From: Eublepharis macularius
Taxonomy: Eukaryota; Chordata; Lepidosauria; Squamata; Eublepharidae
Assembly: GCF_028583425.1 (NCBI RefSeq)
Contig: NC_072795.1
Span: 9,571,001 to 9,635,000 of the forward strand
Reading direction: 5' to 3'
Length of the DNA stretch: 64,000 bases
The translations under genes and the position numbers were made by a program. A model generated the notes under the pieces. It was not told the DNA's origin, ran no database searches, and saw nothing but the letters and a program-made list of their open reading frames with translations. This document shows, piece by piece, positions 3,069 to 53,100 of this stretch; position 1 is the stretch's first letter, and the number at the start of each line of letters is the position of its first letter.

Positions 3069-4548
3069 TAGGGGTGTGCAAAGGCACACTGTTTCATTAT
3101 TCTTGTTTCGGGTTTACCCGAAACAAGAATCTGTTTCGGATACAGGCAAAAGCCGAAACGGCTTTCGGGTTTGTTTCTGCTTGTTTAGGCTTTCTTTTGG
3201 CTTTTTCAAAGGGAAAATCCCTCCATCTTCCCGGACGCCTGGGGGAGGCATTTTCCCACCGAATCATCCCAAAATTGGTGGAGACCTTCCTCTAACCCCT
3301 CTCTAACAATCCCCCAAGTTTCATACCGATTGGACTTTGGGGGGCCATGTTATGGCCCCCCAAACCAGGTCCCCCTATCCTCGCATAAGAAAGGGAAGGG
3401 TGAGCATATTGTTAGCTTGCTGCTGCTCATCTTCTTCTTCATTATTTCCTATGGGGGAAAAATGAAGAGGCAGGCTTCCTTTCCCAGGGGTGGCATTTTG
3501 CATGCAAAATGCCCCCCAACCCTCTGGGGCCCTTCTCCCACCCTTCCTCCCACCCCCCACCAAGGCACAGCCTGCTCCCACTTGGGGGGGGGCATTTCAT
3601 GGCCTCCCCAAGTAGGTGCTCTTTTCTCTACTACTTACAGCTGGGGGAGGCTTGTCTTGCCAGGGGTGGCATTTTGCATGCAAAATGCCCCCCAACCCTC
3701 TGGGGCCCTTCTCCCACCTCTACTCCCACCCCCCACCAAGGCTCAGCCTGCTCCCACTTGGGGGGGGCATTTCATGGCCTCCCCAAGTAGGTGCTCTCAG
3801 CCCCCAAAGTCCACCTCGTACAGCCCCACACAAACCCAATTCCCCCCCCAGCTGCCACACACAGACCCAAATCCCCACATTAGCCCCTCACAGACCCAAA
3901 TCCACCCCCAGCAGCCTCACACCCATAACCCCAGGAACAGGCTGGCAAAGGCCAGCCCTCTCCCTTTGTTCCCTATGCTGGGAACTTCTAAACTCTCTTT
4001 CCCTGGGCAATTCTGCACAGCCCAGGGGTGCCACAATGGTGGGCACACTTCTGAGTGCCAGCTGGTCCCTGTGAAAGAGCACCTGAACCACAGACACCCT
4101 CCCTCAAATTCCCCCACCACCTACAGAGATGCCCCATTGTTCCCTATGATGGGAACCAACTGCACAACAAAGAATAAAACACGAACAACACAAAATAAAG
4201 TTTTTTAAAAATTATTTTCTCCCTTTCAAAGTACAAGTAGGCAAAGCATTATGACACATTACACCAGCAGTCCCCCACACAGAAAAATAACACAACTCAC
4301 TTAACATCAGAGAATCACAAAAGCACAATTCCTGTCAGAAACACTTTATTTCTTGAACAGCTTTAGGATACACAGCAGGGGGGGGCACACCAAAGGACAT
4401 TCCAGCATTCCACCTCACAAAAATAACACAACTCACTTAACATCAGAGAATCACAAAAGCACAATTCCTGTCAAAAACACTTTATTTCTTGAACAGCTTT
4501 AGGTTACACAGTAGGAGGGCACAACAGGACATGATAGCAGTGTACTAT
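3069..4548 (+). mobile_element. hAT-like fold-back family element, single arm
   Basis: The segment starts with taggggtgtgca inside the CR1 copy and matches, in the same order, the left arm of the palindromic element at 48428-51870. Shared parts are the ttggactttggggggccatg block, the ggcattttgcatgcaaaatg block (two copies here) and about 136-bp tandem units containing cacaactcacttaacatcag, near 4291 and 4427. It stops at 4548, where a Penelope composite begins, and no right arm or right terminus follows. Long open frames here (for example 3330-4208) are low-complexity by-products and not genes. Confidence 0.75.
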
Positions 4549-6105
4549 TTCCCAGGGTGTGGAATGCTAATGGCGGGAGGCTTCACTGTATCCTGAGGAG
4601 GTTCTTTTGCATATGGATTGGTGCTTGATGTGCTAATCTTCTCTGCAGGGCTATTGTCGGGTATAGAGTGTTCTGAAGTGCATGGTTTAGATGATTAATT
4701 TCCTCATTGAGAAAGCATGGCTCACATATCCGTCTTGCACGATCCACTAATGTTTTCAGTATGCCTCTTTTCTGTCGGGGGTGGTGATTGGAGTTTTTGT
4801 GTAAGTACCGATCAGTGTGAGTTGGTTTCCTGTAGACCTTGAGACCTAACTGAAAGTTTGCTTTCTGGATGACCAAGGTATCCAGAAATGGAAGTTTTCC
4901 CTCGATTTCTTTCTCCATTGTGAATTGTATGTTCAGGTGGATGTTGTTGAGATGATTCAAAAACCCCATCAATTCTTCCTCCCCATGGCTCCAAATGATA
5001 AATGTATCATCCACAAACCGGAACCATACACTAGGTTTGTGGGGTGCTGATTCTAGAGCTGTTTTTTCAAAATGTTCCATGTAGAAGTTTGCTATAACTG
5101 GGCTGAGAGGGCTCCCCATGGCCACCCCATCCATCTGTTCATAGAATTCGTTATCCCATTGGTTGTAACTGGTTTGCACCTCAGGCAAATGGCTACTCCA
5201 GAAATGAAATCCGAAGAGCAATCAAACCCAGGATGAATCAAACAACCAAGGAAAAACAGTCTCCTACAGGAAAAGTGTTTTTGCCATATATCAAAGGAAT
5301 TACTGATCAGATGGGAAAGCTTATCAAAAAGCATAACCTGCAAGCAGTATTCAGACCCACCCGAAAAATACAACAGATGCTACGATCAGCAAAAGACAGT
5401 AGAGACCCCCTCACCTCTGCAGGAGTATACCGTATACCCTGCAGCTGTGGACAAGTTTACATTGGGACCACAAAGCGTAGCATCCAGACAAAAATAAAAG
5501 AACATGAAAGACACTGCAGACTTGGACAACCTGAAAAATCAGCAGTGGCTGAACATAGCCTAACTCAAACAGGGCACAGTATCTTATTCCAGGACACCAA
5601 AATACTGGACATTTCCAACTACTTCGTCAGACTGCACAGGGAAGCCATTGAAATTCACAAGGATAAGCAAAACTTCAACAGGAAAGAAGAAACCTTAAGA
5701 ATGAACAGAGCATGGTTTCCAGTTCTGAAAAACACCAGGCCAACAAAACACTCTATACCTGTCAATATCCCTGCAGAGAAGATTAACACATCAAGCACCA
5801 ATCCATATGCAAAAGAACCTTCTCAGGATACAGTGAAGCCTCCCCCCATTAGCATTCCACACCCTGGGAAACTCTTACAGGATGACTCAGCTCAACCCCA
5901 CCCCTCCTGAGTAGATATAAATGACCTGCCAACATCTTTTCCACACTGTGACACTGAGAGATCTCTGTCTTTTGGTGCTACACCTCTGAAGATGCTAGCC
6001 ACAGCTGCTGGCAAAACGTCAGGAACTACAATGCCAAGACCACGGCAATACAGCCCGGAAAACCCACAACAACCATCGTTCTCCGGCCGTGAAAGCTTGC
6101 AGAAA
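4549..6105. mobile_element. Head-to-head Penelope-like composite (RT on -, GIY-YIG on +)
   Basis: Two partial Penelope-like retroelement copies point away from each other. On the - strand, 5221-4675 encodes a reverse-transcriptase core with GVAMGSPLSPVIANFYMEHF and the FVDDTF catalytic box. On the + strand, 5233-5910 encodes a GIY-YIG endonuclease domain with GVYRIPC and VYIGTT. The outer ends, about 4549-4672 and 5748-5870, are inverted copies of one another, showing that both halves carry the same 3' end. Positions 5930-6105 hold the Penelope tail with a hammerhead-like motif. Neither half is a full element. Linked RT and GIY-YIG domains are the hallmark of Penelope-like elements. Confidence 0.85.
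5982..6023 (+). ncRNA. Hammerhead-ribozyme-like motif in Penelope tail
   Basis: Read as RNA, ctgaaga (5986-5992) is followed by a 6-bp stem, gctagc (5994-5999) with gctggc (6007-6012), then an aaac core part and cgtcagg. The short acct before the core can pair with agg after the expected cut site. This fits the type I hammerhead layout with a minimal helix III reported in Penelope-like elements. One core position differs from consensus, so activity is doubtful. Confidence 0.5.
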
Positions 6106-6666: not shown

Positions 6667-6680
6667 ATGAAGGGCATATG

Positions 6681-7718: not shown

Positions 7719-7812
7719 ATGAAGGGCATATGTTTTAATGAAGCACTCGCGTTATAAGAATTCAGCTAATTTGTTTGACTGTAACTTTAGTCTCTTCTGT
7801 TGTTATTGGAAG

Positions 7813-7975
7813 CTGGCAAAGCGCTATGGGAACGTCTACACACTGTGGCTGGGTTCTAAACCTATTATCATGCTGTCTGGATATGAAGAGGTGAAAGAAG
7901 TGCTAATAAATCACTCAGAAGACTTTGCTGACAGACCTGTGACCCCTTTAGTTCAAGCGGTAGTAAAAGAACGGG
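7813..7975 (+). CDS. CYP2 gene 1, exon 2
   Basis: A 163-nt exon starting in phase 0 after ggaag and ending one base into a codon before gtaag. It encodes [17 protein letters not shown] and, at its end, [18 protein letters not shown], the segment equivalent to substrate-recognition site 1. The acceptor region ends in gttattggaag, a rather weak polypyrimidine context. Confidence 0.92.
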
Positions 7976-14928: not shown

Positions 14929-14998
<70 letters not shown>

Positions 14999-17900
14999 AG
15001 AGCAGAGGGGAGGAATGTTTTTAACCCATCCCTGGCTCTCCAAATAGAGAGAGAGATACACCCCGTCAACAAGTTTCAGCCAGCTTTTTTAAAAAAGCAG
15101 GGATAGAATCCTCCATTCCTCCCCACCCGATTTTAAAAGCAAGCAGCCAGTCTTCCAAAAGCATATTTTAAACAGGAAGGAAGTAAAACCAGGATCCACA
15201 CGGATCCTCGAGGATCCTATGGTTTTTTAAATAGGAAAAACACAAATGAAACATCAAATCACATATTACAGCCAGGTCCACAGACTGAAATATAAAAAAC
15301 ACAGATCCAAAAATATTTGGCGCTGCCACGGTGAAAAAACATGAATCTGAGACACGGATCCTCATGAATTCATATGATTTTTACATTGAAACAAAACAAA
15401 AAGGCTGTCATATTTTAGATCTTTTGGTCCTGTTTGCGGCATTGGACATGATTTGGTTTCGTATAGTGGATTTTGGGTGGCCTCATGTAAAAATCAAGAG
15501 GATCCATGAGGATCTGTGCTTTTGAACCATGTTTTTGCGCCGTGGCACTGCCACAAAGCAGTGGATGAATGATATTCTTGGTCCCATTTGTGGATATGGA
15601 CATGATCTGGTTTTGTATGGTGGATTTTGGGTGGCCCCATGTAAAAATCAAGAGGATCCATGAGGATCCATGCTTTTAGACCATGTTTTTGCACAATGGG
15701 AGTGCCACGAAGCGGTGGATAACTGATTTTTTTGCCCCTTTTGGGACATGATCTGGGATTGTATGGTGGATTTTGGGTGGTCCCATGTAAAAACCTAGAG
15801 GATCCATGCGGATCTGTGCTTTTGAACCGTATTTTTGCGCCGTGGCAGTTCCATGAAGTAGTGGATGGCTGAATTTTTTGGTCCCATTTGTGGCAACAGA
15901 CATGGTCTGTGATTGTGTGGTGGATTTGGGGTGGCCCGACTTAAAAATCAAGAGGATCCATATGGATCCATGCTTTTTTAGCATGTTTTTGTGCCGTGGC
16001 AGCACCACGAATTAGTGGATGCATGATTGTTTTGTTGCTGTCTGTAGACTAGGACATGATCTATAATATGACAGCCTTTTTGTTTTGTTTCAATATAAAA
16101 ATCATATGAATTCATGAGGATCCTTTTAAAAGCATCTGGATCCAGCTTTTACCCACTCCCTTTTAAACACACACACAGAGCCGTGAATGAGGTTTTCCCA
16201 CAAAATACAGTGTTTTAAAAGCAGGTTAAAAACAGAGAGCGACAGACAGAAAAACAGCCATTCCTCCTACAAAGCCCTGTTTTTTTAAAAAGCAAAAAAA
16301 CATTTGGAGTGCCCATGGCTACAGAACACCCCCTTCCCCCTCCCTCCCCTCTCTTCTCCCAAATGGTGATGCGTTGCTGGCTGCTCCGTGGTTGGAAGGA
16401 AGCCCTGCTGATCAAGGAAAGCTGGGCTTCCATTCGCGTTTCCAGGGCGACAGAAGGAGAGCAAACACAGCTCAGGCATTACCCTGGCTCCGTTGCCAGA
16501 GGAATAGATTGCTGGCGCCTGAGTGTCTGCAAATCCCGAACAGAAACCGATTGATACGATCAAGCCCCAAACAAGCAAACCCCCGACCGCTGAATCGGTT
16601 GCCGTGGACGGCACCGATCAGCCGGGTCCCGATGGCACGAACGCCATTATCGGGTTTTTTTTCAAATCGTAATGCCGATTATGCCCATCTCTAGTCAGTA
16701 GGAACCAAGTGGGCGTATACCCCTGTGTTGATCCCCTGCCACCTGGGAGTGAGTATGCATGAAGTGAGGAGAAGGAGGAGCCAGCAACCTTTAAGAACCA
16801 TGCTGATGGACATGAGAGGAACCCTCACTTCCCAGCTTTGATGCCTAGCTCTGCCCCTGGCCAGCCTACCAGGCCAGCCCCCGATTGGCCATCCCCAGGG
16901 TTTGAATTTTCCCGGGTCATGGTTCAATGCAAGGGGCCGCTGAGGAGGCCACATGGCAGAAGCCTTGCCTCCATACCTCTCTGCTGCCCCACAGGCCACA
17001 ACTCAGCCACTAGGTAATTCTGGGAGCCAACATATCACTGATCTAGTGGCTTTTGATCTAATCATGAACATTTAATATTAAAAGTAAACTGGAACAATCA
17101 ATCTCTTTGAGGAAAGGAGGCAGTTGTCTCATTGTAGGTTATTTCCATTTTTCGGGCAGAGTCTGGTGGACGTCTTCAGCCTACAGCCTACTGAAGGAGA
17201 TGCAAACTTTGTACAGAATACAAGACAATAAATATTTGCCAAGTGTCATGGGTCATACTTGTGACCATGAGAAATTTCTAATATAATGTGGCTTTGAGTG
17301 CCGACAAAATGATTGCACAAGTTGGCAATCCTAAAGTCAAAGTCAATGTTAAACAGTATAGGGAATTGCATATATATTTACACATTATAATCCAATCAGC
17401 TCCTCAGAAGAGCTTTCATCTTTTTTCCCTCTCATATCTTGCTTACTCGTTTCTTAGGTAATGCGGTACTCCTGGCTGCCACACAGTGGCTTGAGCTGGG
17501 GACCGTACTTTGCCACTTCGGAAGGAGAAGCAGGCAGAGACATCTCCCAGGCATATGGGGATATAGCTGGGGGGGCGGAGACAAAGCCTTCAGAAGACGG
17601 CTCCGCCCTCCCTGCTGGCAGTTACTCTGCGTGCTCGGCCCACCCACCTCACCCTGTAGTAGTGCAGGATTAGCCGGCTGCTGTTCCCAGAGCCAGGTAG
17701 GAATTTTTTCTCCTCTCCCCATATTGGCAAGGTGGGAGAGGTGGTTTTTCGCCTACCTTGCACTGCAGGCAGAGGTTTGAGTTAATTGGCAATGGTGGTG
17801 CATCGTTGTAAGTCACTGGCAGGAGAGAGTTTGGGGATAGGGAGCGGGCCGGTGAGCACCCCTTGGCAATTCCCCATTGGTGGGGAAATGGGGTCTACCA

Positions 17901-20900
17901 GGAGCGGATGGTATGCTTGTGACGGCTACCACCACCTGGAGACTGCCTGCAGTGAACCCCATGTGTAAGTCCTTCCCTCATGCTGTACGGCTGAGGCTTT
18001 AGGAGCTTGAAGGGGGGAACCATTTTGCCTGGCTGGCCGGGGAAAAGCCATTGCATGGATGGCTCCTACCCGGGGCTGTGGGGCTCGCCCAGACAGGTCA
18101 AGGCGGTGGTCCAGGGGTGACCCCGTGGCTTGACCTGTACCGCTAGTTTGCCCTTGCCGTATTTAATGGTTGATGTTATATTAATAAAGTGGCCCTTTAG
18201 TTCCAACTCCTGTGTCTGCCTCTTCATTCCGACTGGGGTGGCAATTGCAGCTGATCTTATGTTTCTGTACATTTTGTAGAGTCCAGTTTATTCTCAAGAA
18301 AATAACCCATAATGCACAATTGCTTATTAGAATTCTCAAGCTGTTTATCCAGTCCAAAGATTGAGTAAAACACAATACACGTTTGTGTGTGTGTGTGTGA
18401 TGTGCCATCAAGTTGCTTCTGACCTATGGTGACCCTATGAATGAAAACCCTCCAAAACATCCTATCATTAACAGACTTGCTCAGAGCCTGAAAACTGGAG
18501 AACATGGCTTCTTTTGTATTGTTGAAGGCTTTCACGGCCGGAGAACGATTGGCTGTCCATAGTCTCTGAAAAACTTTCTTCCAGCACCACATTTCAAATG
18601 AATCAGTTTTCTTCCTCTCAGCCTTCTTCACTGTCCAACTTTCACGTCCATAAATAGTAACAGGGAATTATATAGTTTGGATTATCTTGATCTTGATCCC
18701 CACAGAGACATCTTTAAGGTTCGATGTATTGTCGAAGGCTTTCACGGCCGGAGAACGATGGTTGTTGTGGGTTTTCCGGGCTGTATTGCCGTGGTCTTGG
18801 CATTGTGGTTCCTGACGTTTCGCTAGCAGCTGTGGCTTGCATCTTCAGAGGTGTAGCACCAAAAGACAGAGATCTCTCAGTGTCACAGTGTGGAAAAGAT
18901 CTTACCTTAAACAACCATCTTTAAGGTTGTTTTCTAGTTCCCTCCCAGCCACTCTTCCAAAACTCAGTCTTCTGATTTCTTGGTTGCAGTCTCCCTTTTG
19001 GTTGATGGTTGAGCCAAGGAATTGAAGATCTTGAACAATTTCAATTTCCTCATTGTCGGCTTTAAAATTTTGTAATTCCTAAGTAGTCATTACTAGAGAT
19101 GGGCACAAAATGGAACACGAACCAAAAAGAACCACGAACTGGCCCAGTTCATGGTTTGTGAACCAGCGGTTCATGGAAGCTCCTTTCCACAAACTTCTGA
19201 CCTGGTATGCTGGTTCATTTGGTTCGTTTTAAAAAGAAATGCTCCTTTCTGTGCCGCTGCAAAGCAGCACGGAAAGGGGCATTTAAACCTGTGGATCAGC
19301 TGCTTGTCGGGGAGACCCCCAACAAGCACCTGATCATTTGGGGGGGAGACCCCCAACAAGCACAGTGGTGCTTGGCTGCCTGTCAGAGAACTCCCAGCCA
19401 GCCAGCCAGCCAGCCAAGCCCCGCTGTTTAAATGATCAGCTGCTTGTCGGGGATCTAAGCAGCATGGAAAAGGGCATTTAAACTCCACTAACTATGAACC
19501 ATGAACCAGTTCACAAACTTGCCCCAGTTCAAGGAAGTTCATGGTTTGTGAAAATGCATGAACCATGAACTGCATGGTTCATTTTTTTCGCAGTTTGTGA
19601 CCACCCCTAGTCATTACTTTTGTCTTCTTGATGTTCAGATGTAATCCTGCTTTGGTGCTTTCTCCTTTAACCTTCATCAGTAGTCATTCAAGTCTTCACT
19701 ATTTTCTGCCAGCAATGTGATGGCATCTGCATATCTCAAATTGTTAATATTCCACTAAATTTCACTCCACCTTCTTCTAGGTCTAATCCAGGTTTCCTTA
19801 AGATATGCTCTGCATAGAGGTTGAACAGGTAGGGAGATAATATGCATTCTTGTCTGCCACCTTTGCCAATTGGAAACCGTTCTGTTTCTCCCTATTCAGT
19901 CCTGACAGTAGCAGCCTCTTGTCCAGAGTACAGGTTGCTCATCAAAACAATCAGATGTTATGGTACCCCCATTCCTTTTATCACTCTCCATAGCTTTTCA
20001 TAAGCCACGCAGTCAAAAGCTTTGCTGTAATCTATAAAACACAGACTGATTTTCTTCTGAAATTCCCTGGTATATTCAATTAGCCATCATAATATGGCAA
20101 TGAACATGAGCTTGAACATCTGGCATTTCTTGTTCCATATATGGTAAGAGTCTTTGCTGTAGAATTTTGAGCATCACTTTGCTTGCATTGGAAATTAACG
20201 CGATAGCCCAATAGTTGCTGCACTCTTTGGCATCTCCCTTTTTTTGGAATTGGAATGTAGACTAAGCTTTTACAGTCTGTAGGGCATTATTTTGCCCATA
20301 TTGTTGTCTCTGCATGTTAGTCACAGAAAAGCTACATATAGAATTTTGACACTATTTCCGTCACCTTTTGCTTTTGCTTCTCATCTATCTAGCAATTTTA
20401 AGAGTTTCCTCAGTCATCCATTTAGGCTTCCCCTTTCTTTTGGTTCCTGGAATAGTCTTTGCACATTCTTCTTGATAATATCTCTGGTTTCAGTCCATAG
20501 TTCTTCTGGCTTATGATCAATTAAACTTAGTATTGTAAATCTGTTCTTTACATGGTCTTTACATTCTTCAGGAATGTTATTCAGATTGTATTTTGGCACT
20601 ATGACCCTTTTAGCAGCAGAAAAGAGAAAGAATGTAGTAGCAGTAAGATGCAAAAAATTTGAAATGGGGTATAAGCTTTCATGAGTCATAGCTCACTTCT
20701 TCAGATAAGCTGCAATATGGCTAAAACAAAAATTATGCAGAGAGTCCTGAATTCCACTGGATATTTGAAAATTCTCCTCTGTGTTTTCTGTACAGTTCAG
20801 TCCATTCTTTTTTGGCAATTTTTTTTAAAAAAATATTTTTAAACAGTAACATTGCACCCCTGCACCTTGTGCCTAAAAAAAAAGAAGTAAGTTTCTTCAG

Positions 20901-23900
20901 ACAATCAACTGACGAAAGTGACCAGTCCTCAGCTGATCAACTCACAAAAATGACATGTTCCTCAGTGAGCTTGCAGCAGAAATTCGGCCCCTTCCTGGCA
21001 AGCAGCTACGCTGCTCAGCCAGGGGCCGTCCATTGCCGCACTGGAGGGATAGACGGCACCACCCCCTCCTTCCTTATATGGAAGTGCTGGGAGGGCTGAG
21101 CGAGCATAGCTATGCAGCTCTGCCCTCCCAGCTCAGTGCGGTTCAGTCGCTCGGTGGAGAAGGACGTCTCCAGCGAGCGACTGAGAGGCGCGGAGCTCGG
21201 CTGTGCTTTAGGCCAGCGGCTTGGGAGGCTTGCCTGCGGGCTCGGAGCTTCCTCGGCGCGGGCGGCGGCGGCTGCAGCGAAGAACGGCGGTAGAAGGGCC
21301 GTTTCAGCGGCCGAGAGCGGCTGCGCCGGCCAGTGGAGGCGCGGCGTGGCGCAGCAGAGCCGAGCGGCCTCCCACTCACCTACCCGGCTTGGGAGCACGT
21401 GGAGTGCGAGCGAATTTGCCGGGAGGGGAGTCAAGGAGCGGGGCGCGGGGAGGCCTGAGCGCCCTTCGGGCCCGTGCTGCTCCCGGGCAGCGAGGCCGCG
21501 GTCCCGGGAGGGAGCCCATGGGTTGGTTCCCCTGCCAGGGGACATAATCTCAGTTGGGAGCCCAGTGGGCGGCGGCTGTTAGCCTACCTTGGGCACCCAC
21601 GCCATTTTACCGGCGTAGTTGCCGGCGGCCATTTTGTGGGCAGCAGAGTGGTCGGCCATTTTGGGCTGCTGCTCATTACTGGGGCAGCGTGGCCTAGTGG
21701 GCAAGTTGCCATTTATTGGGCATAGGCCTGCTTTCCTGGTGCCTGGTTTAGTGGGGATTTATTCCTTCCCCCCCCCCTAAGAGCCAGTAACACCCTTCTC
21801 ATTAGATTGGGAGCTGGCAGGGTCAGCCTGGCCTAGTACCTGTGAGGCGGGGAGGTGACTGACGGTCATTAATTCCTTGTTGTCCTACTGGTCAGTCCGG
21901 CCCAATCTCGTCAGATTTTGGAAGCTAAGCAGTGTCAGCCTTGCTTAGTAAATTGAGGCCTGACCCAATAGTGGTCGGGGGGGGGATTTAGGTATTGAGG
22001 TTGAAGGTTTTACGTGGGGGTTGAAACTGGTGAGTAGCATGGCACCCAAGACGGGTGAAGGGAATTCAAAAGGGAAGCAACCTGCTAAGAGGGCGCCTTC
22101 CAAGCGACCCCCTCCCCCGGCTCTGTCTTCCTCAGACGATGAGGACTCCTTTGGGGAACAGCAGGATATTTTGAAGCGCCTGGAGGCGCTGGAGCGGGCA
22201 AGAGGGGATGCGGTGTCAGTAAGCAGGGGTGCGTACAGTACAGCCAGTGCGGCGAGCATCTGGAATCGCAATTAACCGTGATATTTTGCGCCGTTTATCT
22301 GCCTTGGAAGGTTCTGCTGGATCCCCAGCAGCTGGAGGTTGCAGTGGTCCCCAGCAAAGGTGTCTGATGCCTCAGGAACCGGCTGTAGAAGTGGTGGACT
22401 CACCTGCGGAGTTACCGCCTGTTGCAGTGGCTGTGGACCCGGTGGAGGCACCTGGTAAGGATCATGCACCACACTACCCTTACCCTTGGCCTTGGGGGCC
22501 AGGGGCACAGGCTGCTGCTTGTGCGTTGATTATTGGTCTGCAGGACGCCCCAGCCAATCCTGCGCTGCCCTTGGGTGGGGTACAGCCCACTTTAAATCAG
22601 GCTTTCAGCCTGGCTCAGCAGCAACAGGCAGTTCCCCTTCAAGTTTGGGGAGGCCCATCTTGGGGTTATTATCCTTATCCGGCACTGAACTATGGCCAGG
22701 TTCCTTTTCTGCTATGCCCTTTGGCGATACGGCCCTTCCTTTGGGCGACCATTTGGCACAGGCCACGAGGGATAAAGTTCTACGTAGGGAGTATGTCAAC
22801 GTCTTTTCCGTTCTCTACCATGAATTAGAGAAGGAGGATAAAGATGTGATGGACAATAGAGACAAGGAACGCCTGAAAAAGTGGCGAGTTGACAGGACCT
22901 GGAACAATTGGCTGCCTGGCTTCCTGATTTACGCTGGGGTAATTGCCAGGGCGCTGCCCAACCGGGCTGTGTCTCTGTTTCAGTATCTTGACATCATTCT
23001 GAAAGGTTATAGCGGCTTCTCAGGTGCTGCATGGATGCAGTACGATGTGGAGTTCTGCATGCGGGCAGCAATGTACCCCAGCCTTCCGTGGGACCGCATT
23101 CACCAACAGTTGTGGCTGTCGGTGATGTCTCCTGCCATGCCTAACTTGGGGGACCGTTCGGACAGCGGCCAGGTAGTTTCTCGCAACTCCCAGCCGACTA
23201 ATACCCGCGGCCGGGTGGGACAGCAGGTTCAACACTGGCTGCTCTGCTGGGAGTATGCGTATAAGGGAACTTGCCCTAGGAAACCTTGCCGATTCCGGTA
23301 TGAATGCCCATCTTGTGCGGGCCAGCATCCATACAATGCGTGTGGTAAAGCCCGTCAGGGGTGGGGGAGGTAGGAAGCAGGGGGGCGGCGGCTCCACCAG
23401 CCAACAACCTCCTGGAAAAGGGCCCCCAGCCCGGTAAAGATGAGGGTCCTTGAACGCCTGTTATGTTCTTATCCTCTTAAGGAGGCTGCAGTTTATTGGT
23501 TGGAAGGTTTCAGGGATGGTTTCAGAATCCCTGTTCAGGGGCCTAGGGCCCCATTTTTTATGGTTGAGGACTGGCGTTCTGTTCATGGCAAGGAAGACAT
23601 AGTTAGGCATAAAATCAAGAGGGAATGCACAGAGGGTAGAGTTTTGGGGCCATTTGTGGCTCCTCCAACCCCCAATTCCGGGTGTCTCCTTTGGGGGTGG
23701 TGCCGCAGAAGGCGGCTGGCGAGTATCGCCTTCTCCACCACCTTTCGTATCCTAAAGGTGGTTAGGTTAATGATGCCATCCCTGGGGCATTTGTCTCTGT
23801 CCGGTACACCTCTTTTGATCAGGCTGTGCATTTGGTGTGCAGATGTGGGGTGGGCGCAGAGCTGGTTAAATGTGTTATTAAGTCTGCATTTTGCCTTCTC

Positions 23901-26900
23901 CCTGTCCATCCGTTGGATTTTGAGCTATTGGGGTTTGCCTTTGAAGGTGGGTATTATATGGATCGTGCCCTACCGATGGGTTGTTCCGTGTCTTGTGCAG
24001 CCTTTGAGCGCTTCAGCTCATTCCTGGAGGGGGAACTGAGGCGGCGTATGTTTAGCTGTGACTCCGCCCACTATTAGATAATTTTTGTTCGTTGGGCGGG
24101 CGCAGTAGTCTCAATGTGCTCGGCTTTTCACCTTCTTTATGGGGCTGGCAGATGAGCTGGGGGTTCCATTGGCCCCCGAGAAGACGGGTCCCTCTACAGT
24201 GCTTACCTTCTTAGGCATTGGTTGGACACGGTTCAGCAATCCTTACGATTGCTCTTTGACAAGGGCGACGACCTTAGGGCTCGTCTGCGGGATTTTAAGG
24301 GTAAGCACAAGGCCTCCTTGGTTGAGCTGCAACAGCTTGAGGGGCACCTTAAGTTTGCGTGCAAAGCTGTTTCACCTGGGAGGCCGTGTTTGCGTCATTA
24401 GTGCGATGCTGTGGCTCGCCTGCGTGCACCCCATCACAGGCTGCGAGTGACAGGTGGCATGCATGCCGACCTAGAGGTGTGGTTGGAATATTTGAGTGGC
24501 TTTAACAGTATTACCTTTTGGCAGCAGGATTTGTTGCCCGAGGCGGAGTTGCAAGTTACATCTGATGCCTCGGGTTCCACTGACTTCGGAGTTTGTTTCC
24601 GGAGGCACTGGTGTGCTGAACAGGGGCCCGCTGATTGGCTGGCATCAGATTTGGTCCAACTATGGGGCGAGGAGCTGGCAAATCACACTGTCCACTTTTG
24701 GGGTGACAATTTGGCCGTGGTTCACGTCGTCAATTCCTTGTCCTCTGAGTCCCTCAGGGTCATGTGATTGGTTAGGGCATTTACACTAGTGTGCCTGTGG
24801 CGCAATATATTGTTTAAGGCCAGGCACGTTCCTGGCGTGTGCAAAGGTGTCGTGGACGCTTTGTCTTGCCAACAGATGGAGTGTTTCTGGCAGCTTGCCC
24901 CGGAGGCAGATCCTCGTACGGCGGTGATGCCCCCAGAGCTTTGGCTGCTTGGGAGGTCGAGGCGGGCCGCGCCATCCAGCTAGCCATCACACCCAGTACA
25001 CAGGGCGCTTGTTGGAGAGCGGGAGGCCGGTTGGACGGGTTTAGGCGAGAAGCTGGGATTGGTAATGCCTGGCCTATTCCGGTCGAGCACATTCTCCAGT
25101 TTTGTGTCCACCAGAAGGTCTGTGGGCTGACAGTAAGTCCATTAAGGGGCAACTATCAGCCCTGGCCTTTGTTAGCAAAGCTCGGGGATTTCCTGAGGCC
25201 ACGGGTGATTTCCGAGTGCGGAGGATACTCGAAGGATGGTCCAGGGAGTGCGCGGTCCACAAGGATCCGCGTCAGCCCATTTCCCCATCCGTCCTTAAGG
25301 GCCTTAGTGCGGTCTGGAAAAGGGTTTGTACTTCGGCCTATGAGGCAAGGCTCTTTCACGCAGCTGCGTTGACTGCCTTTTTCGGGGCCCTTCGGGTCAG
25401 GGAGCTGGTGGTTCATCCTGTAAGGATAATTCCGGCCGTGCCCTTATGGCAAGTGACCTAGCTTTCGAGGGTGACAGGGTTTCAGTGACGATCCGCTGGT
25501 CCATGGCGGACCAGATGTGTAAGGGGGCTTGCGTTCAGTTGGGCTCTTGCTCTGAGGCGGAGCTGTGCCCTGTCCATGTATGGAGGAGGTAACGGTAGGT
25601 GCGTGGCAGTGAGCAAGGCTGCCTTTTCTGGCACTGGGATGCCTTCCCCTTAACTCGCTACCAGTTCTGGGTAGTGACTAAGTGAGCTCTGGTGGCGCTG
25701 GGGTTGCAAGGCGTGAGCTTTGGTACTCATACCTTTCGAATTGGAGCGGCTTCAACAGCCGCTGCCATGGGGTATTCAGGTCAGGCCATTCAAAAGGTTG
25801 GGGTGGCGGTCTGCGGCCTACTGTTCCTGGGTACGTCCATTGCAGCATGTTTAAACGTTACTAATTGTTGTTTTTCTTAGGTCCTGCGTCACGGGTTGGA
25901 TGACAACGCATCTTGATTCGGGGGCACAGTTTGTCTTCTGGGCTGCCCATCAAGCACGCAGGACGCCAGTTGGGTCTCAGCTCGGGTTAAGTGACCGGGC
26001 TACTGATGAATGGCAGGGTCGGGGGCCTTCGGTGGCCAGGCCTGATGCCAATGCTGTTTGGAGTTGGGCGTGATACGCCACCCCATATACTTGTTATCCA
26101 TTTCATGGGAAATGATTTGGGTTTGATGCAGTGATGGCATTATATTCTCAGGCGCTATCTGATATGCGCCTCATCGCGGCATGTTGGCCGGGAGTGCTGA
26201 TCAGGTGGTCGGTTATGATCCCTCGTCAAGTTCGGAGGGAGGCTGAAGATTGCCAGGCCATCGAGCAGGCCAGGATGAAGGCCAATAGGGCCATCCAAAG
26301 GTTTGGGGGCCGGGTTAGGCGTTATTTGCCTCACCCTCGGATCAGGGCCGAATTCCCCGACCTCTACAGGGGTGATGGGGTGCACTTGTCTCAGACAGGC
26401 AACCACATTTTTCTTGACGATCTGCGGCAAGGACTTCAGTTGGCCTTAGGCCATCAGTGGGGCGCCAGGGCCTAAGCAGAGGCTTGGTCCTGGCGTTGGC
26501 TGGTTTGTAGGAGTAGGGTGCGGGACGGTGAGCACCCTTGGCGCTTCCCTATGTGGGAAGAGGGGCCTGCCTAAAGGGCTGGTACTGCTGTGACGGCTGC
26601 CAGGCCCACAGGCAGGCTGCCTTCGGGAACCCCAGCCTGCGAGGCCTTTCCCTCACTGCTTGACGGCTGAGGTGTCAGGAGCTTAAAGGGGGGTGACCAA
26701 ATTTGCCTGGCCGGCTGGGTCCGCCCCATCCACTGGATGGGTCCCACCTGGGGCTTCGGGGCTCGCCCAGACAGGTCAAGGCGGTGGTCCAGGTGGGACG
26801 CCGTGGCTTGACCTGTACCGCTTTAGGTCCTTGCCGCTGTTTAGCTTGTTTTGTCTGTATAAAGTTAATAAAGTGGCCCTTAGATCCAACTTGGTGTCCG

Positions 26901-29900
26901 TCTCTTTTCTGACTGGTGTGGCAATTCGGCCCCTTCCTGGCAAGCAGCTACGCTGCTCAGCCAGGGGCCGTCCATTGCCGCACTGGAGGGATAGACGGCA
27001 CCACCCCCTCCTTCCTTATATGGAAGTGCTGGGAGGGCTGAGCGAGCATAGCTATGCAGCTCTGCCCTCCCAGCTCAGTGCGGTTCAGTCGCTCGGCCCA
27101 CCCACCTCTCCCTAATTTTATTGGTGTAGGACTAGCCGGCTGCCGTTATGGGGTCAGGTAGGAATTTTTCCCTCCTTTCCGAATTGGCTGTGGTAAAAGG
27201 GGGTTTTTCGCCTACCTTACACCGATGCTTGGGGATTGAGAAATTTGTTTTGAGGTGGTGCCTGTTAGGAGTGTCCTGGCTGGTTTGTAGGAGTAGGGTG
27301 CGGGACGGTGAGCACCCTTGGCGCTTCCCTATGTGGGAAGAGGGGCCTGCCTAAAGGGCTGGTACTGCTGTGACGGCTGCCAGGCCCACAGGCAGGCTGC
27401 CTTCGGGAACCCCAGCCTGCGAGGCCTTTCCCTCACTGCTTGACGGCTGAGGTGTCAGGAGCTTAAAGGGGGGTGACCAAATTTGCCTGGCCGGCTGGGT
27501 CCGCCCCATCCACTGGATGGGTCCCACCTGGGGCTTCGGGGCTCGCCCAGACAGGTCAAGGCGGTGGTCCAGGTGGGACGCCGTGGCTTGACCTGTACCG
27601 CTTTAGGTCCTTGCCGCTGTTTAGCTTGTTTTGTCTGTATAAAGTTAATAAAGTGGCCCTTAGATCCAACTTGGTGTCCGTCTCTTTTCTGACTGGTGTG
27701 GCAATGGGGTGTTTTTCTAGTGCAGAAAAAATAAACAGACACCACTTTGCTTCGACCTCCCCCCACTCAATTGCTGAATTACAAAGTCCCAAAGTGTGTT
27801 CGATCTTCGCAGATCAAAAATCCAGAAAACCTAGTGTAAGCATGCATATGGAAAAAACTAACCTCCAGGTAGAGCCTGGACTTCTCCCAGAATCACAAAT
27901 GATTTCCAGATGACAGAAATCAATTGCCTGTGAAGAAGCCTTTTGTGTGAAACGGGACTGGACTCCTCATATGCCGGCGAATCCCGTAGGCGGTGTATAC
28001 GGTGGCATAAATTACTTATGAGGAGGCATCTTCCATCGACATCTACTTGACCTTGGCAATTAATTTGCTGTGTTATGGACTATTATGAATTTATTGGAAG
28101 CACTTTGCTGCATAGATTGTATACTATGAATTTCTCTACCATTGTTGATACTTCAGTGTATGTGTAGTGAGATGTGTTGCATGTTTGAATTTAATTCATT
28201 GAGCACTTCAGAACTTTAAATATATATTTGTGTAATTTCTGGTTATGGTTTACTCCTAAGGGCTTTTGGTACTTGGTGTCATTCAGGTGCCCCGGGAGCA
28301 GCTCTTTTGTCTACTGAGGGAGGAAATGGCAGTTTCAGAGGGCAGACTCAATGGAGTGACATCCTTGCTGACCTCTCTTCTCTCCCCAAATGCTGCCCTC
28401 CCCAAGCACTGCCTGCCTCTACATTTCCAGAAACTGGTCAAGCCAGAATTGACAATCCTATCCATGGATGTTGAGTAAAAATGCCTAGAATTCATTGTAA
28501 ACTTCTTTTTTTACTTTTCTTATTCTTAACAACAGAGCAAGAATGACCCCAACTCTACGTACAATGAGGAGAACCTGGCTCAGTGTGTTTTTGAACTTTT
28601 TGTGACAGGGACAGAAACGACGTCCTTGACTTTGCAGTGGGCATTGATCCTCATGGCAACTCACCCAGACATCCAGCGTAAGAAAGACTTCTGCACTGAT
28701 TCAAAGAAAGACCACCTTTATAACTCCAAGGATTAATTTCCTTTTAATTTTTGTAAAGAGGTTATAATTCGTCTAAGTTTTCATATTTGGCAGCTAATTA
28801 ACAGTAGAAACCTGTATTCCCTTATATAGGACTAAGTGCCATAGAATATTGTGGCATGTATGTCTGCAGGTCTCTTTACACATGCACAAAACACAAGTTT
28901 CATTGGAGGACATCCCAACTCAAGCTACACTGAACAGGTTGAAGCTTACTTTTAAAATGGGTGGGGGATAGGCTCCCATGTTTGTACAGGGGCAGGAGGA
29001 GCATCTTCATTCCCTCCTTTCTATTTGTCTTACTGCTGGTTCCACACATGTGGCTAAGATCTGCCTGTGTAACCCTTGTCCACTAGAGGGAGATAAAGTG
29101 TTTCGGTATTCCTTAGAAGGAAAAAAAAGGCGCAATTTTCCCTGAGAGACTGGAGGTCCTGAAGCTGCAGGGAGAAGCACTTTCTCCTCAGAAGCACTCC
29201 TTTCTATGAACTCTCTATTAATGTTGTAGACTCCTGTGAAGAATAGAAGATGTCCTACTGCAGAGCACAGTTACAAGTTGGTGCATTTCAAGGGACTGAC
29301 CAGACAGAAGTCAGAAAGACTGAAACCTGGGTCTCCTTAAATAAAACAGGCATGTTTTGTTACATGATTGTTGTTGCTATATTTTATTATTGTATTGTTC
29401 CAAATAAGACGTTTTCTTTTTCCAGTTTTGTTTATTATTATTTTTATAAATGCAAGTGTCAGAAGGTGGGTTCATACTGTTATAGACATGAACTCTCCCA
29501 GTTCCCAAATTAGATATATCTATTTATTTGATGTTGTTCCTTGAACAAAAAAAGGTTACACCTGTATCATCTAATCATGCCTGTGGAGACATGTGAAACT
29601 AGCAGTAAGATAAATAACATGGAGTAAATGAATCTCCTTTAACATTCCTGTGTCCTCTTAACATTTCGGTGGTACAGCTCATTTTATAACCAGCATTCTT
29701 GAATCCCTATGGAATAGTTTCAGACACTGACTAACTTTAATGAGGTAAATGCAATGTCCAGATAAAAGCTTCCTCAGTCAGTCAGTCAAGCAAGCCTTTA
29801 TTGGCATATATAAAATATAAAATTTTAAAATACAGAGACTCCATACAAAATGAGATTAAAATACAGATAGGAGCAGGGCAACAGTACAGCAAAAACAGTA

Positions 29901-37581: not shown

Positions 37582-38560
37582 TAGAGGTGGGCACGATCCA
37601 AAAAAAATTACTGATCAAGCTGATTGTGGATCTGCGCCGGCGACAAACCCAAATCACCGACCCACACCAATCAACTCCTGTTTCCAATCTGTGGATTGGA
37701 TCGGGGGGGGCAAAGCGGAGGGGCGCCCCACTGTTCCCAGCTATGTGGGAAGGTGGGTGGTGGTGGCGACCGCCGGGTGCGGCGGGCACAGGGAGGCGGC
37801 AAAGAGCCGCCTCCCCTCAGGGAGGAGACGTTCACACACACACACACACACACACACTTAGAGCAGAGGGGGGGAGTTTTTAACCTGTCCTTGCCTCTCC
37901 AAATAGAGAGAGAGAGAGACACCCCGTCAACATGTTTCAGTCAGCTTTTTTTAAAAAAGCAGGGACAGAATCCTCCATTCCTCCCCACCCAATTTGAAAA
38001 GCAAGCAGCCAGTCTTCCGAAAGCATATTTTAAACACACACACAGCCATGAATGAGGTTTTCCCACAAAATACAGTGTTTTAAAAGCAGGTTAAAAACAG
38101 AGAGCGACAGACAGAAAAACAGCCATTCCTCCTACAAAGCCCCAATTTTTTAAAAAGCAAAAAAACATTTGGAGTGCCCATGGCTACAGAACACCCCCTT
38201 CTCCCTCCCTCCCCTCTCTTCTCCCAAATGGTGATGTGTTGCAGGCTGCTCCATGGTTGGAAGGAAGCCCTGCTGATCAAGGAAAGCTGGGCTTCCATTG
38301 GGGTTTCCAGGGCGACAGAAGAAGGGCAAACACAGCTCAGGCATTCCCCTGGCTCCGTTGCCCCGGGAATAGATTACTGGCGCCTGATTGTCTGCATCCC
38401 CGATCAGATCCCAATGGCCCAAATCAAGCCCCAATGAAGCCCCCCCCTCCTGAACACTGGATTGGTTGCCGTGGATGGCACCGATCTGCTGGGTCCCGAT
38501 CGCGCGAACGCCATTATCGTGGGTATTTTTCTATCGTAATGCTGATCATGCCCATCTCTA
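37582..38560. mobile_element. 979-bp hAT-like element (copy 2)
   Basis: It begins tagaggtgggcac and ends gcccatctcta, as in 14713-16693. An exact 8-bp target duplication, cccactgc, is at 37574-37581 and 38561-38568. It shares a (CA)n tract (near 37831-37857) and most flanking text with the longer copy but lacks its internal ~990-bp block. It is non-autonomous. Confidence 0.9.
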
Positions 38561-47181: not shown

Positions 47182-50100
47182 GTATGTCATTCTGTTTTAT
47201 TTATTTATTTAAGCAATTCGTTTTATTACCTCCCTAGTTTGTTGAAACTCAAGGCGAAGTGCAGAATTTGTAAAACCAGTGTAATGAAGAGCATTATATT
47301 ACACAAAATATGCAATGCAACCAGACTAGATTATGCCATTCAGCAATAAATAACATTATCAAATGGAATTATACCACTAAAGAAGAAGTGAAGAACGGTA
47401 TAATATACAGTAAACAATATAAAGAGGATAATATAGAGTAAACAATACATTGGAGGTGGGAGATTTCTAAAAAAAACCAAAACAGACAATTTAAGCTACA
47501 GCCCTCTCTCTGTGTGTTATGCTTTGCTAAGTTGCTTCCGACTTAGGGTGACCCTACATATGAACACACCCTATCATTAACAGACTTGCTCTCCCTCACC
47601 TCCTATATGGAGCTGAAGTGTAGGGTTAGAAGGAAGGTATTCTAACCAGTCTTCAGGTAATCCAAAATGAACTTTTGAGATGGATTTTGGCTTTACCCAA
47701 AGGCACTCCTGCTGCCCTGATGAGGGCCAAAACAGGACTCCCCTCCCTTAGGGCGCGGGTACACCTTGCAGTTTTCAAATACTGGAAATGGATCAAATTT
47801 TCCAGTTCGGACTCCCTAAACTGCCAATCAGTGAATTTTTTATTATCTAAAGACCCCTCACACCCTGGCTTTCTATCCACCATCCTGGATGGCCTGTTAG
47901 GGGTCTCAACCAACAACCTTCCACTTGTTTGTAACCTTCCACTTGTTTGAGTGGATTTGTAAGTCAGATGCAGTGATGGATTGGCTATCAATATTAAAAT
48001 CTAAGGCAGCTGCTTGGTATAAACTAATCAAATTTGACCACTTAAGATCTCCCTACCTAGCCAATATTTCTCATTGTAACCTCAGAGGGTCTTTTACTGC
48101 TCTGCACTTTCAGATGATGCAAACAGCTCTTTTGGCAGGGCGTTATTCTCACACCCCTATGGAACATCGCACCTGCATTTGTGGATTACCTACAGTAAAG
48201 AACCTTTCCCACTACCTACTTTATTGTCCATTATACAGTGTGCCCAGAGCTAAATTCTTGGCTAGAATTCTATCAGTCCCAAACACATACTCTGAAATTG
48301 AGAAGATTGTGTTATTGTTATCTGACACTGATAACCATGTGTCCTACAGAGTCTCTCAGTTTGCACTTGCAGCCAAAGAGATAAGATCTAAGGTGGCATT
48401 GAATGAGGCTGTTTCGTGATTCCTGGGTAGGGATGTGCGTTTCGGCATTCAGAATGCCGAAAGAATGCCGAAACAAAAGTGTTTCGGCTTCTTTCAGGGA
48501 ATGCCGAAACGTTTCGGGGAATCCCGAAACGTTTCGGGTAGCCGAAAGAAAAAAGCCGAAACGTTTCGGGATTCTTTCGTCTTTCATTCGGCTTTTCAAT
48601 GGGAAAATGCCTCCGTCTTCCCGGACGTCTGGGGGAGGCATCTTCCCACCGAATAAGCCCAAAATTGGTGGGGACCTTCCTCTAACCCTTCTCTAACAAC
48701 CACCCAAGTTTCAGACAGATTGGACTTTGGGGGGCCATGTTATGGCCCCCCAAAGCAGGTCCCCCATCCTCCCATAAAGGAGCATCTTCTTCATTATTTC
48801 CTATGGGGAAAAAATGAAGAAGCAGGCTTCCTTTGCCAGGGGTGGCATTTTGCATGCAAAATGCCCCCTTACCCTCAGGGGCCCTTCTCCCACCCCTCCT
48901 CCCACCCCCCACCAAGGCTCAGCCTGCTCCCACTTGGGGGGGCCATTTCATGGCCTCCCCAAGTAGGTCCTGTCAGCCCCTAAATTCCACCCCTTACAGC
49001 TCCACACAAACCCAATTCCCCCCAGCTGCCACACACAGACCCAAATCCCCACATTAGCCCCTCACAGACCCAAATCCACCCCCACCTGCCCCACACCCAT
49101 AACCCCAGGAACAGGCTGGCAAAGGCCAGCCCTCTCCCTTTGTTCCCTATGCTGGGAACTTCTAAACTCTCTTTCCCTGGGCAATTCTGCACAGCCCAGG
49201 GGTGCCACAATGGTGGGCACACTTCTGAGTGCCAGCTGGTCCCTGTGAAAGAGCACCTGAACCACAGACACCCTCCCTCAAATTCCCCCACCACCTACAG
49301 AAATGGCTGGCCAGCCAGCCCCATTGTTCCCTATGATGGGAACCAACTGCACAACAAAGAATAAAACAAGAACAACACAAAATAAAGTTTTTTAAAAATT
49401 ATTTTCTCCCTTCCAAAGTACAAGTAGGCAAAGCATTATGACACATAACACCAGCAGTCCCCCACACAGAAAAATAACACAACTCACTTAACATCAGAGA
49501 ATCACAAAGCACGATTCCTGTCAAAAACACTTTATTTCTTGAACAGCTTTAGGCTACACAGCAGGGGGGAACACCAAAGGGCATGGCAGCAGTATCTTAC
49601 ACAAAAATAACACAACTCACTTAACATCAGAGAATCACAAAAGCACAATTCCTGTCAAAAACACTTTATTTCTTGAACAGCTTTAGGCTACACAGCAGGG
49701 GGGGAACACCAAAGGGCATGGAAGCAGTATCTTACACAAAAATAACACAACTCACTTAACATCAGAGAATCACAAAAACACAATTCCTGGCAAAAACACT
49801 TTATTTCTTGAACAGCTTTAGGCTACACAGCAGGGGGGGAACACCAAAGGGCATGGAAGCAGTATCTTACACAAAAATAACACAAATCACTTAACATCAG
49901 AGAATCACAAAAACACAATTCCTGGCAAAAACACTTTATTTCTTGAACAGCTTTAGGTTACACAGTAGGAGGGCACAAAAGGGCATGATAGCAATGTACT
50001 ACAAAAAATAATACAACCCACTTCACCGTTTTTGACAGCAATTGTGTTTGTGTGATTCTCTGATGTGAAGTGAGTTGTGTTATTTTTGTGTAGTACACTG

Positions 50101-53100
50101 CTTTCCTGCTCTGTGGTGCCTTCCTACTGTGTAACCTAAAGCAGTTACAGAAATAAAGTGCTTTTGACGGCAATTTTTTGGGGTGATTCTTTAATGTGAA
50201 GTGAGTTGTGTTATTTTTGTGTAAGATACTGCTTCCATGCCCTTTGGTGTCCCCCCCCCTGCTGTGTAGCCTAAAGCTGTTCAAGAAATAAAGTGTTTTT
50301 GACAGGAATTGTGCTTTTGTGATTCTCTGATGTTAAGTGAGTTGTGTTATTTTTGTGTAAGATACTGCTGCCAAGCCCTTTGGTGTTCCCCCCTGCTGTG
50401 TAACCTAAAGCTGTTCAAGAAATAAAGTGTTTTTGACAGGAATCGTGCTTTGTGATTCTCTGATGTTAAGTGAGTTGTGTTATTTTTCTGTGTGGGGGAC
50501 TGCTGGTGTAATGTGTCATAATGCTTTGCCTACTTGTACTTTGGAAGGGAGAAAATAATTTTTTAAAAACTTTATTTTGTGTTGTTCTTGTTTTATTCTT
50601 TGTTGTGCAGTTGGTTCCCATCATAGGGAACAATGGGGCTGGCTGGCCAGCTATCTCTGTAGGTGGTGGGGGAATTTGAGGGAGGGTGTCTGTGGTTCAG
50701 GTGTTCTTTCACAGGGACCAGCTGGCACTCAGAAGTGTGCCCACCATTGTGGCACCCCTGGGCTGTGCAGAATTGCCCAGGGAAAGAGAGTTTAGAAGTT
50801 CCCAGCATAGGGAACAAAGGGAGAGGGCTGGCCTTTGCCAGCCTGTTCCTGGGGTTATGGGTGTGGGGCAGGTGGGGGTGGATTTGGGTCTGTGAGGGGC
50901 TAATGTGGGGATTTGGGTCTGTGTGTGGCAGCTGGGGGGGAATTGGGTTTGTGTGGGGCTGTAAGGGGTGGACTTTAGGGGCTGAGAGGACCTACTTGGG
51001 GAGGCCATGAAATGGCCCCCCCAAGTGGGAGCAGTCTGAGCCTTGGTGTGGGGTGGGAGGAAGGGTGGGAGAAGGGCCCCAGAGGGCTGGGGGGCATTTT
51101 GCATGCAAAATGCCACCCCTGGCAACACAAGCCTCCCCCAGCTGTCAGTGGTAGAGATTAGAGCACCTACTTGGGGAGGCCATGAAATGGCCCCCCCAAG
51201 TGGGAGCAGGCTGAGCCTTGGTGGGGGGTGGGAGGAGGGGTGGGAGAAGGGCCCCAGAGGGTTGGGGGGCATTTTGCATGCAAAATGCCACCCCTGGCAA
51301 CACAAGCCTCCCCCAGCTGTCAGTGGTAGAGATTAGAGCACCTACTTGGGGAGGCCATGAAATGGCCCCCCCAAGTGGGAGCAGGCTGAGCCTTGGTGGG
51401 GGGTGGGAGGAGGGGTGGGAGAAGGGCCCCTGAGGGCTTGGGGGCATTTTGCATGCAAAATGCCACCCCTGGCAAAGGAAGCCTGCTTCTTCATTTTTTC
51501 CCCATAGGAAATAATGAAGAAGATGCTCCTTTATGGGAGGATGGGGGGACCTGCTTTGGGGGGCCATAACATGGCCCCCCAAAGTCCAATCTGTCTGAAA
51601 CTTGGGTGGTTGTTAGAGAAGGGTTAGAGGAAGGTCCCCACCAATTTTGGGCTTATTCGGTGGGAAAATGCCTCCTCCAGGCGTCCTGGAAGACGGAGGC
51701 ATTTTCCCATAGAAAAAAGCCGAAAGAATGCCGAAATAATGCCGAAAGAATCCCGAATCCCGAATCCCGAAAGAGATTCTTGTTTCGGCTTTCAGCTTTA
51801 ACGATAGAGAATTTTCTTTCGGCTTTCTACTTTCGGCTATAGCCGAAAATTTTTGGCTTGCACACCCCTATTCCTGGGATAGCATGGTATACTGTACTGT
51901 TTTAATTAATTTTAATTAACCTTTTCAAACTGTGATATTGGATTTAACTGTTTATTAGTTGATGTTTGGAAAATTTGTGACGGCCTATGGCTATAGACAA
52001 TAAACTCTTTTGGACTAACAAACTTGCTCAAATCTTAAAAACTGGAGGATGTCGCTGCTTTTATTGATTCAAGACATCTTGTTTTAGGTCTTCCTCTTTT
52101 CCTACTGCTTTCCACTTTTCTCAGCATTGTTGACTTTTCCAGAGAGTCTTGCCTTCTCATGATGTGACCAAAGTATGATCACTCCAGTTTTGTCAATTTA
52201 GCTTCTAGAGAGAACACAGGCTTGATTTGATCTAGAACCCACTTATTTGTCCTTTTGGCTGTCCGTGGTATCCACAAAACTCTCCCCCATCCCTGCTGAA
52301 AGGCTGAGTTCTTATCTGTGATGAAATTCAGCATACCCTCATTCAGAGAATAATCTATGGTTTAAACTGGGCCCAACATTATTACTGGAGAAGCAAGTTA
52401 GTTAAGCTGCAAAAAATGTTTTCTGCCATTTTAGTTTAAACTGGAGGATGGCTCTCTAACTTTGACCTGGATGATGTGGTATATAAATGAAACAAACAAC
52501 AAATAAACTCAGAGTCTTTCGCTCTGTCATTCTCTGGTATAAGCAAAGATATGAAGTCACGTTTTACCACAAAAGGTGCCACGTCATTGCGTAACTTTTT
52601 TTGTATGGGTTCTATGGGGCTAATTGAGGAAGCAAACTTTCACACACATATAAGTTAAGAAAAAAAAACTTAGAATTATAGCCCTGCAAGAACATTGAAA
52701 TCCCAGTAATAACACCAAACGAACTCAATACACATATATCTCTTTTAGTCATATTGTTCACATACAACATTTCTGATGACCTTATTCAAGATGATAAGAG
52801 CACATTAATTTTTATCAATTTCCACAGCAACCAGCTTTCTCCTCAGCTGCCTGGCTATAACTAAGTGATAGGGGTTACAATTGCATTCAGAAAAATCTGC
52901 ACCAATACCTGCATTTGGGTCATTAGCATACATCCCGGAAGATCTAGTTATTATTCCGTGGGTGGAGAGACAAAAACAAGGACTCCTGTGCTGCTTATCT
53001 TATTTGTCTTCTTAACAAGCCAATTACCTTAACAGTAATTAGCTTGTTTAGAAGAGCCTGTGATCTAAAAGTGATACAGACACTCCCTTTGAGAGGATAT

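Follow-up and report, generated by a model that had tools for sequence, protein, structure and literature searches.

The window analysed here is a stretch of 64,000 nucleotides from the genome of the squamate Eublepharis macularius (GCF_028583425.1, contig NC_072795.1, positions 9,571,001 to 9,635,000 of the forward strand). A mobile element of 3.4 kb lies at positions 48428-51870 of the window, bracketed by exact 8-bp duplications, TTCCTGGG, at 48420-48427 and 51871-51878. A sequence-only reading of the window had described it as an almost fully palindromic hAT-like element. Inspection of the window sequence confirmed the coordinates, the duplications and the 38-base spacer between the arms. 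The element is made up as follows.

48420..48427, no strand: left 8-bp target-site duplication, TTCCTGGG, an exact match with the right duplication
48428..48438, plus strand: left terminal inverted repeat, TAGGGATGTGC
48428..48563, plus strand: left end, with no mirror on the right; ten TTTCGG/CCGAAA motifs and an eleventh at the inner border
48564..50027, plus strand: left arm, consisting of one 175-bp unit, the core, and four 135-bp units with a remnant
49466..50023, plus strand: 135-bp minisatellite of the left arm, 4.2 copies
50019..50072, no strand: axis, a perfect 8-bp stem with a 38-base loop; the junction is common to both subfamilies described below
50028..51747, minus strand: right arm, consisting of divergent inner monomers, the core and about three 175-bp units
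50028..50491, minus strand: 135-bp minisatellite of the right arm, 3.5 copies, of which those nearest the axis are divergent
50985..51475, minus strand: 175-bp tandem units of the right arm, 2.8 copies
51748..51870, minus strand: right end, with no mirror on the left; contains five TTTCGG/CCGAAA motifs out of eight on this side
51860..51870, minus strand: right terminal inverted repeat, TAGGGGTGTGC on the minus strand
51871..51878, no strand: right 8-bp target-site duplication, TTCCTGGG, an exact match with the left duplication

The palindrome is real. Its mirrored arms place 95.7% of the element in inverted self-matches, as against 32%, 29% and 0% in three other window elements with like ends. 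The longest ungapped inverted pair is 697 nt at 98% identity, further pairs are 173-226 nt at 94-97%, and the longest exact mirrored run is 235 nt. At the axis the stem CACTTCAC (50019-50026) pairs with GTGAAGTG (50065-50072) around a loop at 50027-50064. The repeat number is unequal between the two arms, and the innermost full monomers (L4/R3) have 83% identity, compared to 98.5-99.3% for the outer monomers. Kilobase palindromes are usually regarded as unstable.

The ends are different. Foldback elements have long inverted repeats that typically run to the very tips. The window element has long inverted repeats with internal tandem repeats, but mirrored homology begins only ~137 bp in from the left tip and ~123 bp in from the right tip. 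The proposal that the whole body is folded back is thus correct for the arms, including the minisatellite, and incorrect for these outermost segments. Beyond the mirrored part the two ends have in common only the 11-bp terminal repeat and the type of motif. The element has 19 TTTCGG/CCGAAA motifs, all confined to its outer 142 bp and 151 bp; the three right-hand ones not listed above are at 51720-51747, just within the mirrored part. That the ends are wholly unrelated was considered and rejected, as their left-right score beats 300 of 300 shuffles. It does so because the motifs are shared; the ends are alike in kind, not mirrored. The repeats are probably the binding sites of a transposase.

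The window's own assembly (2.24 Gb, 72 contigs) was searched with the left end and left arm only. This gave 2227 first-look candidates, of which 40 were scored, and 39 copies besides the window's were fetched; the copies read are the best-scoring of these candidates. Each of the 40 copies has a single left and a single right end between exact 8-bp duplications, showing that the palindrome moved as a single unit, as had been proposed. There are 39 distinct duplications among the 40. The repeated one belongs to L023 and L024, 110 kb apart on contig C3 of the assembly (G000:C3), whose flanks are identical over 100/100 bp on both sides; they are one duplicated locus (a segmental duplication). The copies are 3136-3795 bp long with varying counts of 175-bp and 135-bp units, and the arm segments of the fetched copies deviate on average by 0.07-0.18% from the majority sequence. 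The subfamily of the window element is called P here. With one more P copy recovered by a second query (L050, below), both arms could be extracted in 41 of 41 copies, and the left-type and the right-type end are each retained in all of them.

Exact patterns were counted across the assembly; reversed controls were all 0, and positions were listed for the first 100 matches per pattern. A 36-bp left end occurs 2253 times and a 36-bp right end 1571 times (2324 at up to 3 mismatches). A 33-mer across the axis occurs 2423 times, both subfamilies counted. As a rough guess, the family would make up ~0.3% of the genome if every left end stood for a full-length copy. The first 100 left ends span C1:4.96-104.95 Mb. 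An exact right end stands opposite 63 of them, 2568-4158 bp away; 16 more have an exact axis only, and 21 have neither. Among the first 20 listed, 12 have an exact right partner, and all 12 of these have exact duplications, two of them with the identical eight letters.

The duplications, the target pattern, the short tips and the length all agree with an Ac-type hAT transposon, which supports the hAT-like assignment of the sequence-only reading. First, 8-bp duplications are found in 40/40 and 12/12 copies. Second, T is at position 2 in 41 of 52 duplications, A is at position 7 in 43 of 52, and a central TA occurs in 1 of 52. The target is nTnnnnAn, not nnnTAnnn, a preference rather than a rule. 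nTnnnnAn is the pattern given for Hermes (PMC10368747), and the Buster pattern is described otherwise (PMC3517528); the duplications here do not match Buster. Third, hAT elements are described as having terminal inverted repeats of 5-27 bp and a length below 4 kb (PMC3517528). The tips here are 11 bp, TAGGG(A/G)TGTGC, with the exception of one copy (L037) with TGGGG at the left tip.

No Pfam family was found at E 0.001 in the one long open reading frame (ORF) of the element that was scanned or in that of its relative at 3069-4548, both of which overlap the arm core or its homologue. The element is apparently non-autonomous and would be moved by a transposase acting in trans from elsewhere. The hAT dimerisation domain was found at 150 scored places in the genome, all over the cut-off, of 4145 candidates, and five of these places lie in open frames of 918-921 amino acids. 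Intact hAT transposase genes may exist in the genome.

The relative near the start of the window belongs to an older, larger sister subfamily, S.

3069..4548, plus strand: truncated copy of the older sister subfamily, retaining its left end and the greater part of the left arm; broken off 26 bp short of the axis
4549..6096, no strand: Penelope-like insertion with an inverted part, interrupting the 3069-4548 copy; right border approximate

The left end of the 3069-4548 copy is intact. The copy breaks off where the insertion starts, 26 bp before the axis position of an intact sister copy (L048). The insertion has a reverse transcriptase domain (PF00078 at 5e-8) on the minus strand, and we take it to be Penelope-like; its plus-strand ORF had no Pfam match. 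It also contains 128-bp inverted repeats (4548-4675 / 5744-5871) with 94.5% identity. No second copy of CTCGCTAC was found in 3001-14000, one mismatch allowed. The 3069-4548 copy is uninformative on a one-armed ancestor and is not established as a one-arm element: the homology seen by the sequence-only reading is there, but the single arm is what the insertion left.

A query with 3069-4547 gave 5295 candidates, of which 40 were scored, and eight loci were picked from the listing for informative-looking structure, not at random. Seven of the eight have 8-bp duplications; at the remaining one (L052) no end pair with a duplication was found. Four (L048, L049, L051, L053) have both arms, ends of the S type and an exact duplication each. 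One (L050) is the P-type copy mentioned above, and another (L055) has a partly deleted left arm. L054 is one-armed, 1650 bp long and has an exact duplication; because it retains 52 bp of the lost arm beside the axis, it arose by deletion. The P and S copies compared all have the left centre abutting the right centre at an identical junction.

The two arms have not diverged evenly. Near the axis, 16 informative sites group by arm and none by subfamily (copies L022 and L049). In the outer arms, 10 sites group by subfamily and one by arm; group majorities were taken here from the window fragment, from 7 P copies out of 41 and from whatever sequence the four two-armed sister copies offered. The difference between centre and outer arms is significant (Fisher p=1.3e-6). 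Single sister copies over both segments gave the same outer-arm grouping, by subfamily versus by arm, at 11 vs 1, 12 vs 1 and 8 vs 0 sites; for L049, compared over one segment, it was 4 vs 0. The left centre is 4.5% from the sister subfamily's left centre and 15.2% from its own right centre. Since the centre groups by arm and the outer arms by subfamily, the two-armed form looks older than the P/S split, after which the outer arms have been homogenised. An arm tree from the window data alone was tried and left undecided by the long branch of monomer R3, with 16 changes of its own versus 2, 1 and 1 shared sites; the sister copies decided. The arm core (49021-49464 / 3830-4278) is ~2% diverged between subfamilies, compared to 7-8% for the outer arm (5/431 vs 29/426 sites, Fisher p=1.4e-5).

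Individual copies show the exchange more directly. Scoring ten left/right diagnostic sites in the 41 P copies showed conversion-like, multi-site arm switches in three: L045, whose left arm is right-type at 5/5 diagnostic sites of one segment; L033, whose right arm is left-type at 4/5; and L050, whose arms are identical in both segments. The exchange would be mainly within one element. In two of the 41 copies (L046, L047) the centre is inverted, with a common breakpoint region in the 135-bp array. These two have separate target duplications and, given the shared breakpoint region, the inverted form moved on. Among the 68 axes on C1 that could be matched to a listed left end, 8 are inverted; a ninth case belongs to a locus with two left ends, described below.

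The best explanation, at a probability of roughly 0.8, is that the window element is a copy of a young, high-copy, non-autonomous Ac-type hAT family with an old inverted-duplication body, whose arms keep exchanging while its ends are kept unlike. The two-armed body would have originated once, ahead of the P/S split. Cut-and-paste movement by a foreign transposase would produce the 8-bp duplications, and this transposase would recognise two unlike ends, each an 11-bp inverted tip with subterminal TTTCGG/CCGAAA repeats. Gene conversion and crossover between the arms since then would keep the outer arms alike. Such exchange would sometimes invert the centre and go along with the varying repeat number. 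The outermost ~125-137 bp would remain unlike, since two like ends would leave an element immobile. Hermes is reported to need unlike ends, left-end/left-end constructs having little activity and right-end/right-end ones none (PMC10368747). By analogy, homogenisation may be tolerated as far as the ends and eliminated beyond, which would give a selective reason for unlike ends.

Several observations weigh against this explanation. The by-arm centre comes from one sister copy, L049, the sole one with a divergent right monomer; by group means, the right centres of the other three two-armed S copies, in which that monomer is missing, are 10.9% from the P left centre and 11.4% from the P right centre. 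Single-site switches in 11 further copies of the 41 may be mutation, and the copies are too alike to separate exchange within an element from exchange between elements. The 39 copies are top-scoring and biased to young ones, and the first look may have favoured two-armed copies. Of the 100 listed left ends, 37 have no exact right end, including the 21 that lack the axis too, and their structures were unread. Finally, the genome search for hAT domains, with 150 places scored out of 4145 candidates, turned up no transposase gene bearing these ends, and the five scored places in C1:4.9-105 Mb are all farther than 15 kb from any listed end, as judged by eye.

The homogenised outer arms bear on a different process, in which an arm is lost and re-made by fold-back or template switching during gap repair, instead of being converted. 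This would likewise yield the by-subfamily pattern, and abortive repair with template switching after excision is said to alter DNA transposons in this way (PMC4168063). It is unlikely: the old divergent centre survives in the P copies and in one sister copy, requiring that re-copying halt before the axis, and an inverted centre requires exchange between arms. Membership in the P superfamily, as for Galileo, or in another superfamily with 8-bp duplications is improbable. Galileo copies do make 7-8-bp duplications and carry long inverted repeats, which in one copy contain tandem repeats (PMC4168063), but the nTnnnnAn target and the short TAG...GTGC tips point to hAT, and the genome has many hAT transposase domains, though P-type transposases were not searched for.

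The sequence-only reading took the relative at 3069-4548 as a sign that the palindrome had formed from a one-arm form. In favour of a recent origin of this kind, L054 is a one-armed element flanked by duplications of its own, and over 48564-49740 the two window arms are nearer each other than either is to the 3069-4548 copy (62 sites unique to the latter vs 11 and 8). Nevertheless such an origin is very improbable: the 3069-4548 copy was cut by an insertion; the four intact members of its subfamily that were read each have two arms and the same axis; L054 still holds 52 bp of its lost arm past the axis; and the left centre resembles the sister left centre more than its own right centre.

An assembly or sequencing artefact, in the form of a fold-back read, had also been raised. 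One locus, C1:85653794-85657043 (L088-L093), may be such a case: it has two left ends and mirrored flanks, identical 1 kb out and unmatched 5 kb out. Rather than an ordinary insertion, it is either a duplication made by fold-back or a fault of the assembly. In the window element, substitutions and complete repeat units distinguish the two arms, the ends are unlike, one target duplication encloses everything and the design recurs in 40/40 copies, making an error there very unlikely; this verdict comes from the assembled sequence, no reads having been seen. Two separate head-to-head insertions, suggested by the terminal inverted repeat at the end of each arm, are extremely improbable, as a single duplication surrounds the whole element in 40/40 copies and the axis is identical across copies and subfamilies.

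A broader proposal is that arm exchange within the element, barred only at the ends that the transposase distinguishes, actively maintains thousands of vertebrate near-palindromes, that inversion of the centre is recurrent, and that breaks at the axis sometimes fold back and duplicate the flanks, as at C1:85653794-85657043. This is tentative, and as a whole it is more doubtful than probable.

Among the designs found in print, the closest is a palindromic hAT of cod with tandem-repeat arms, followed by Galileo and Tetris. gadMor-hAT-1784 of Atlantic cod is hAT-derived, has no ORF and has a palindromic consensus with two long inverted repeats built of 167-169-bp tandem repeats (PMC12368964). It differs in its ~600-bp repeats and in mean insertions of ~1.33-1.40 kb at breakpoints, versus 3.1-3.8 kb here; the parts of that paper available mention neither unlike ends nor a common axis nor exchange between arms, and the comparison is by description, not by sequence. 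Galileo of Drosophila is Foldback-like, with one copy having 4.2- and 4.7-kb inverted repeats and ~140-bp direct repeats, and makes 7-8-bp duplications (PMC4168063). It has a P superfamily transposase, the phrase "gene conversion" is absent from the text of that paper, and the family here has a single two-armed design in 40/40 copies. Tetris of Drosophila virilis is a Foldback element with no conserved ORF, 8-9-bp duplications in complete copies and inverted repeats of up to 1735 bp with ~220-bp tandem units in variable number (PMC4079207). Unlike the present family, it is described from three structurally complete copies, its tandem units also occur in satellite arrays, and its classification was left open. 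Hermes shares the 8-bp nTnnnnAn target and unlike ends whose subterminal repeats matter for movement, but it encodes its own transposase and has 17-bp inverted repeats, and the available text describes no palindromic body (PMC10368747). The literature search found no squamate palindromic hAT, which is weak evidence of absence.

Elsewhere in the window, a scan of end pairs (732 tested, 0.28 matches expected by chance at up to 1 mismatch) found three further elements with like tips and exact 8-bp duplications. They lie at 14713-16693, 19094-19609 and 37582-38560, with TAG(A/G)G(A/G)TGG-type tips and the duplications GTCAGTAG, GTCATTAC and CCCACTGC. End regions are common to the first and third (76% and 89%), and tandem repeats occur inside the first. 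One more end pair, the fifth, at 3583-3722 with one mismatch, was attributed to chance. There are also direct repeats of 429 bp (26497-26925 / 27277-27705) and 174 bp (20981-21154 / 26923-27096), both at 100%. The palindromic element seems to sit in LINE-like sequence, an impression from the flanking ORF 47901-48416, where there was no Pfam hit. Its joined flanks, taken as an empty site, had no homologue across the join within the window. Rfam gave nothing above the gathering threshold in the window, and an exact 32-mer of the minisatellite had 0 matches in viral contigs.

A design with arms of ~1.6-1.8 kb has thus spread to roughly two thousand exact left ends. Its sister copies record conversion-like tracts, inverted centres and arm deletions. 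The family is a natural data set on recombination between long inverted repeats in an animal germ line, and it tests whether the need for unlike ends limits the homogenisation of a hAT element.

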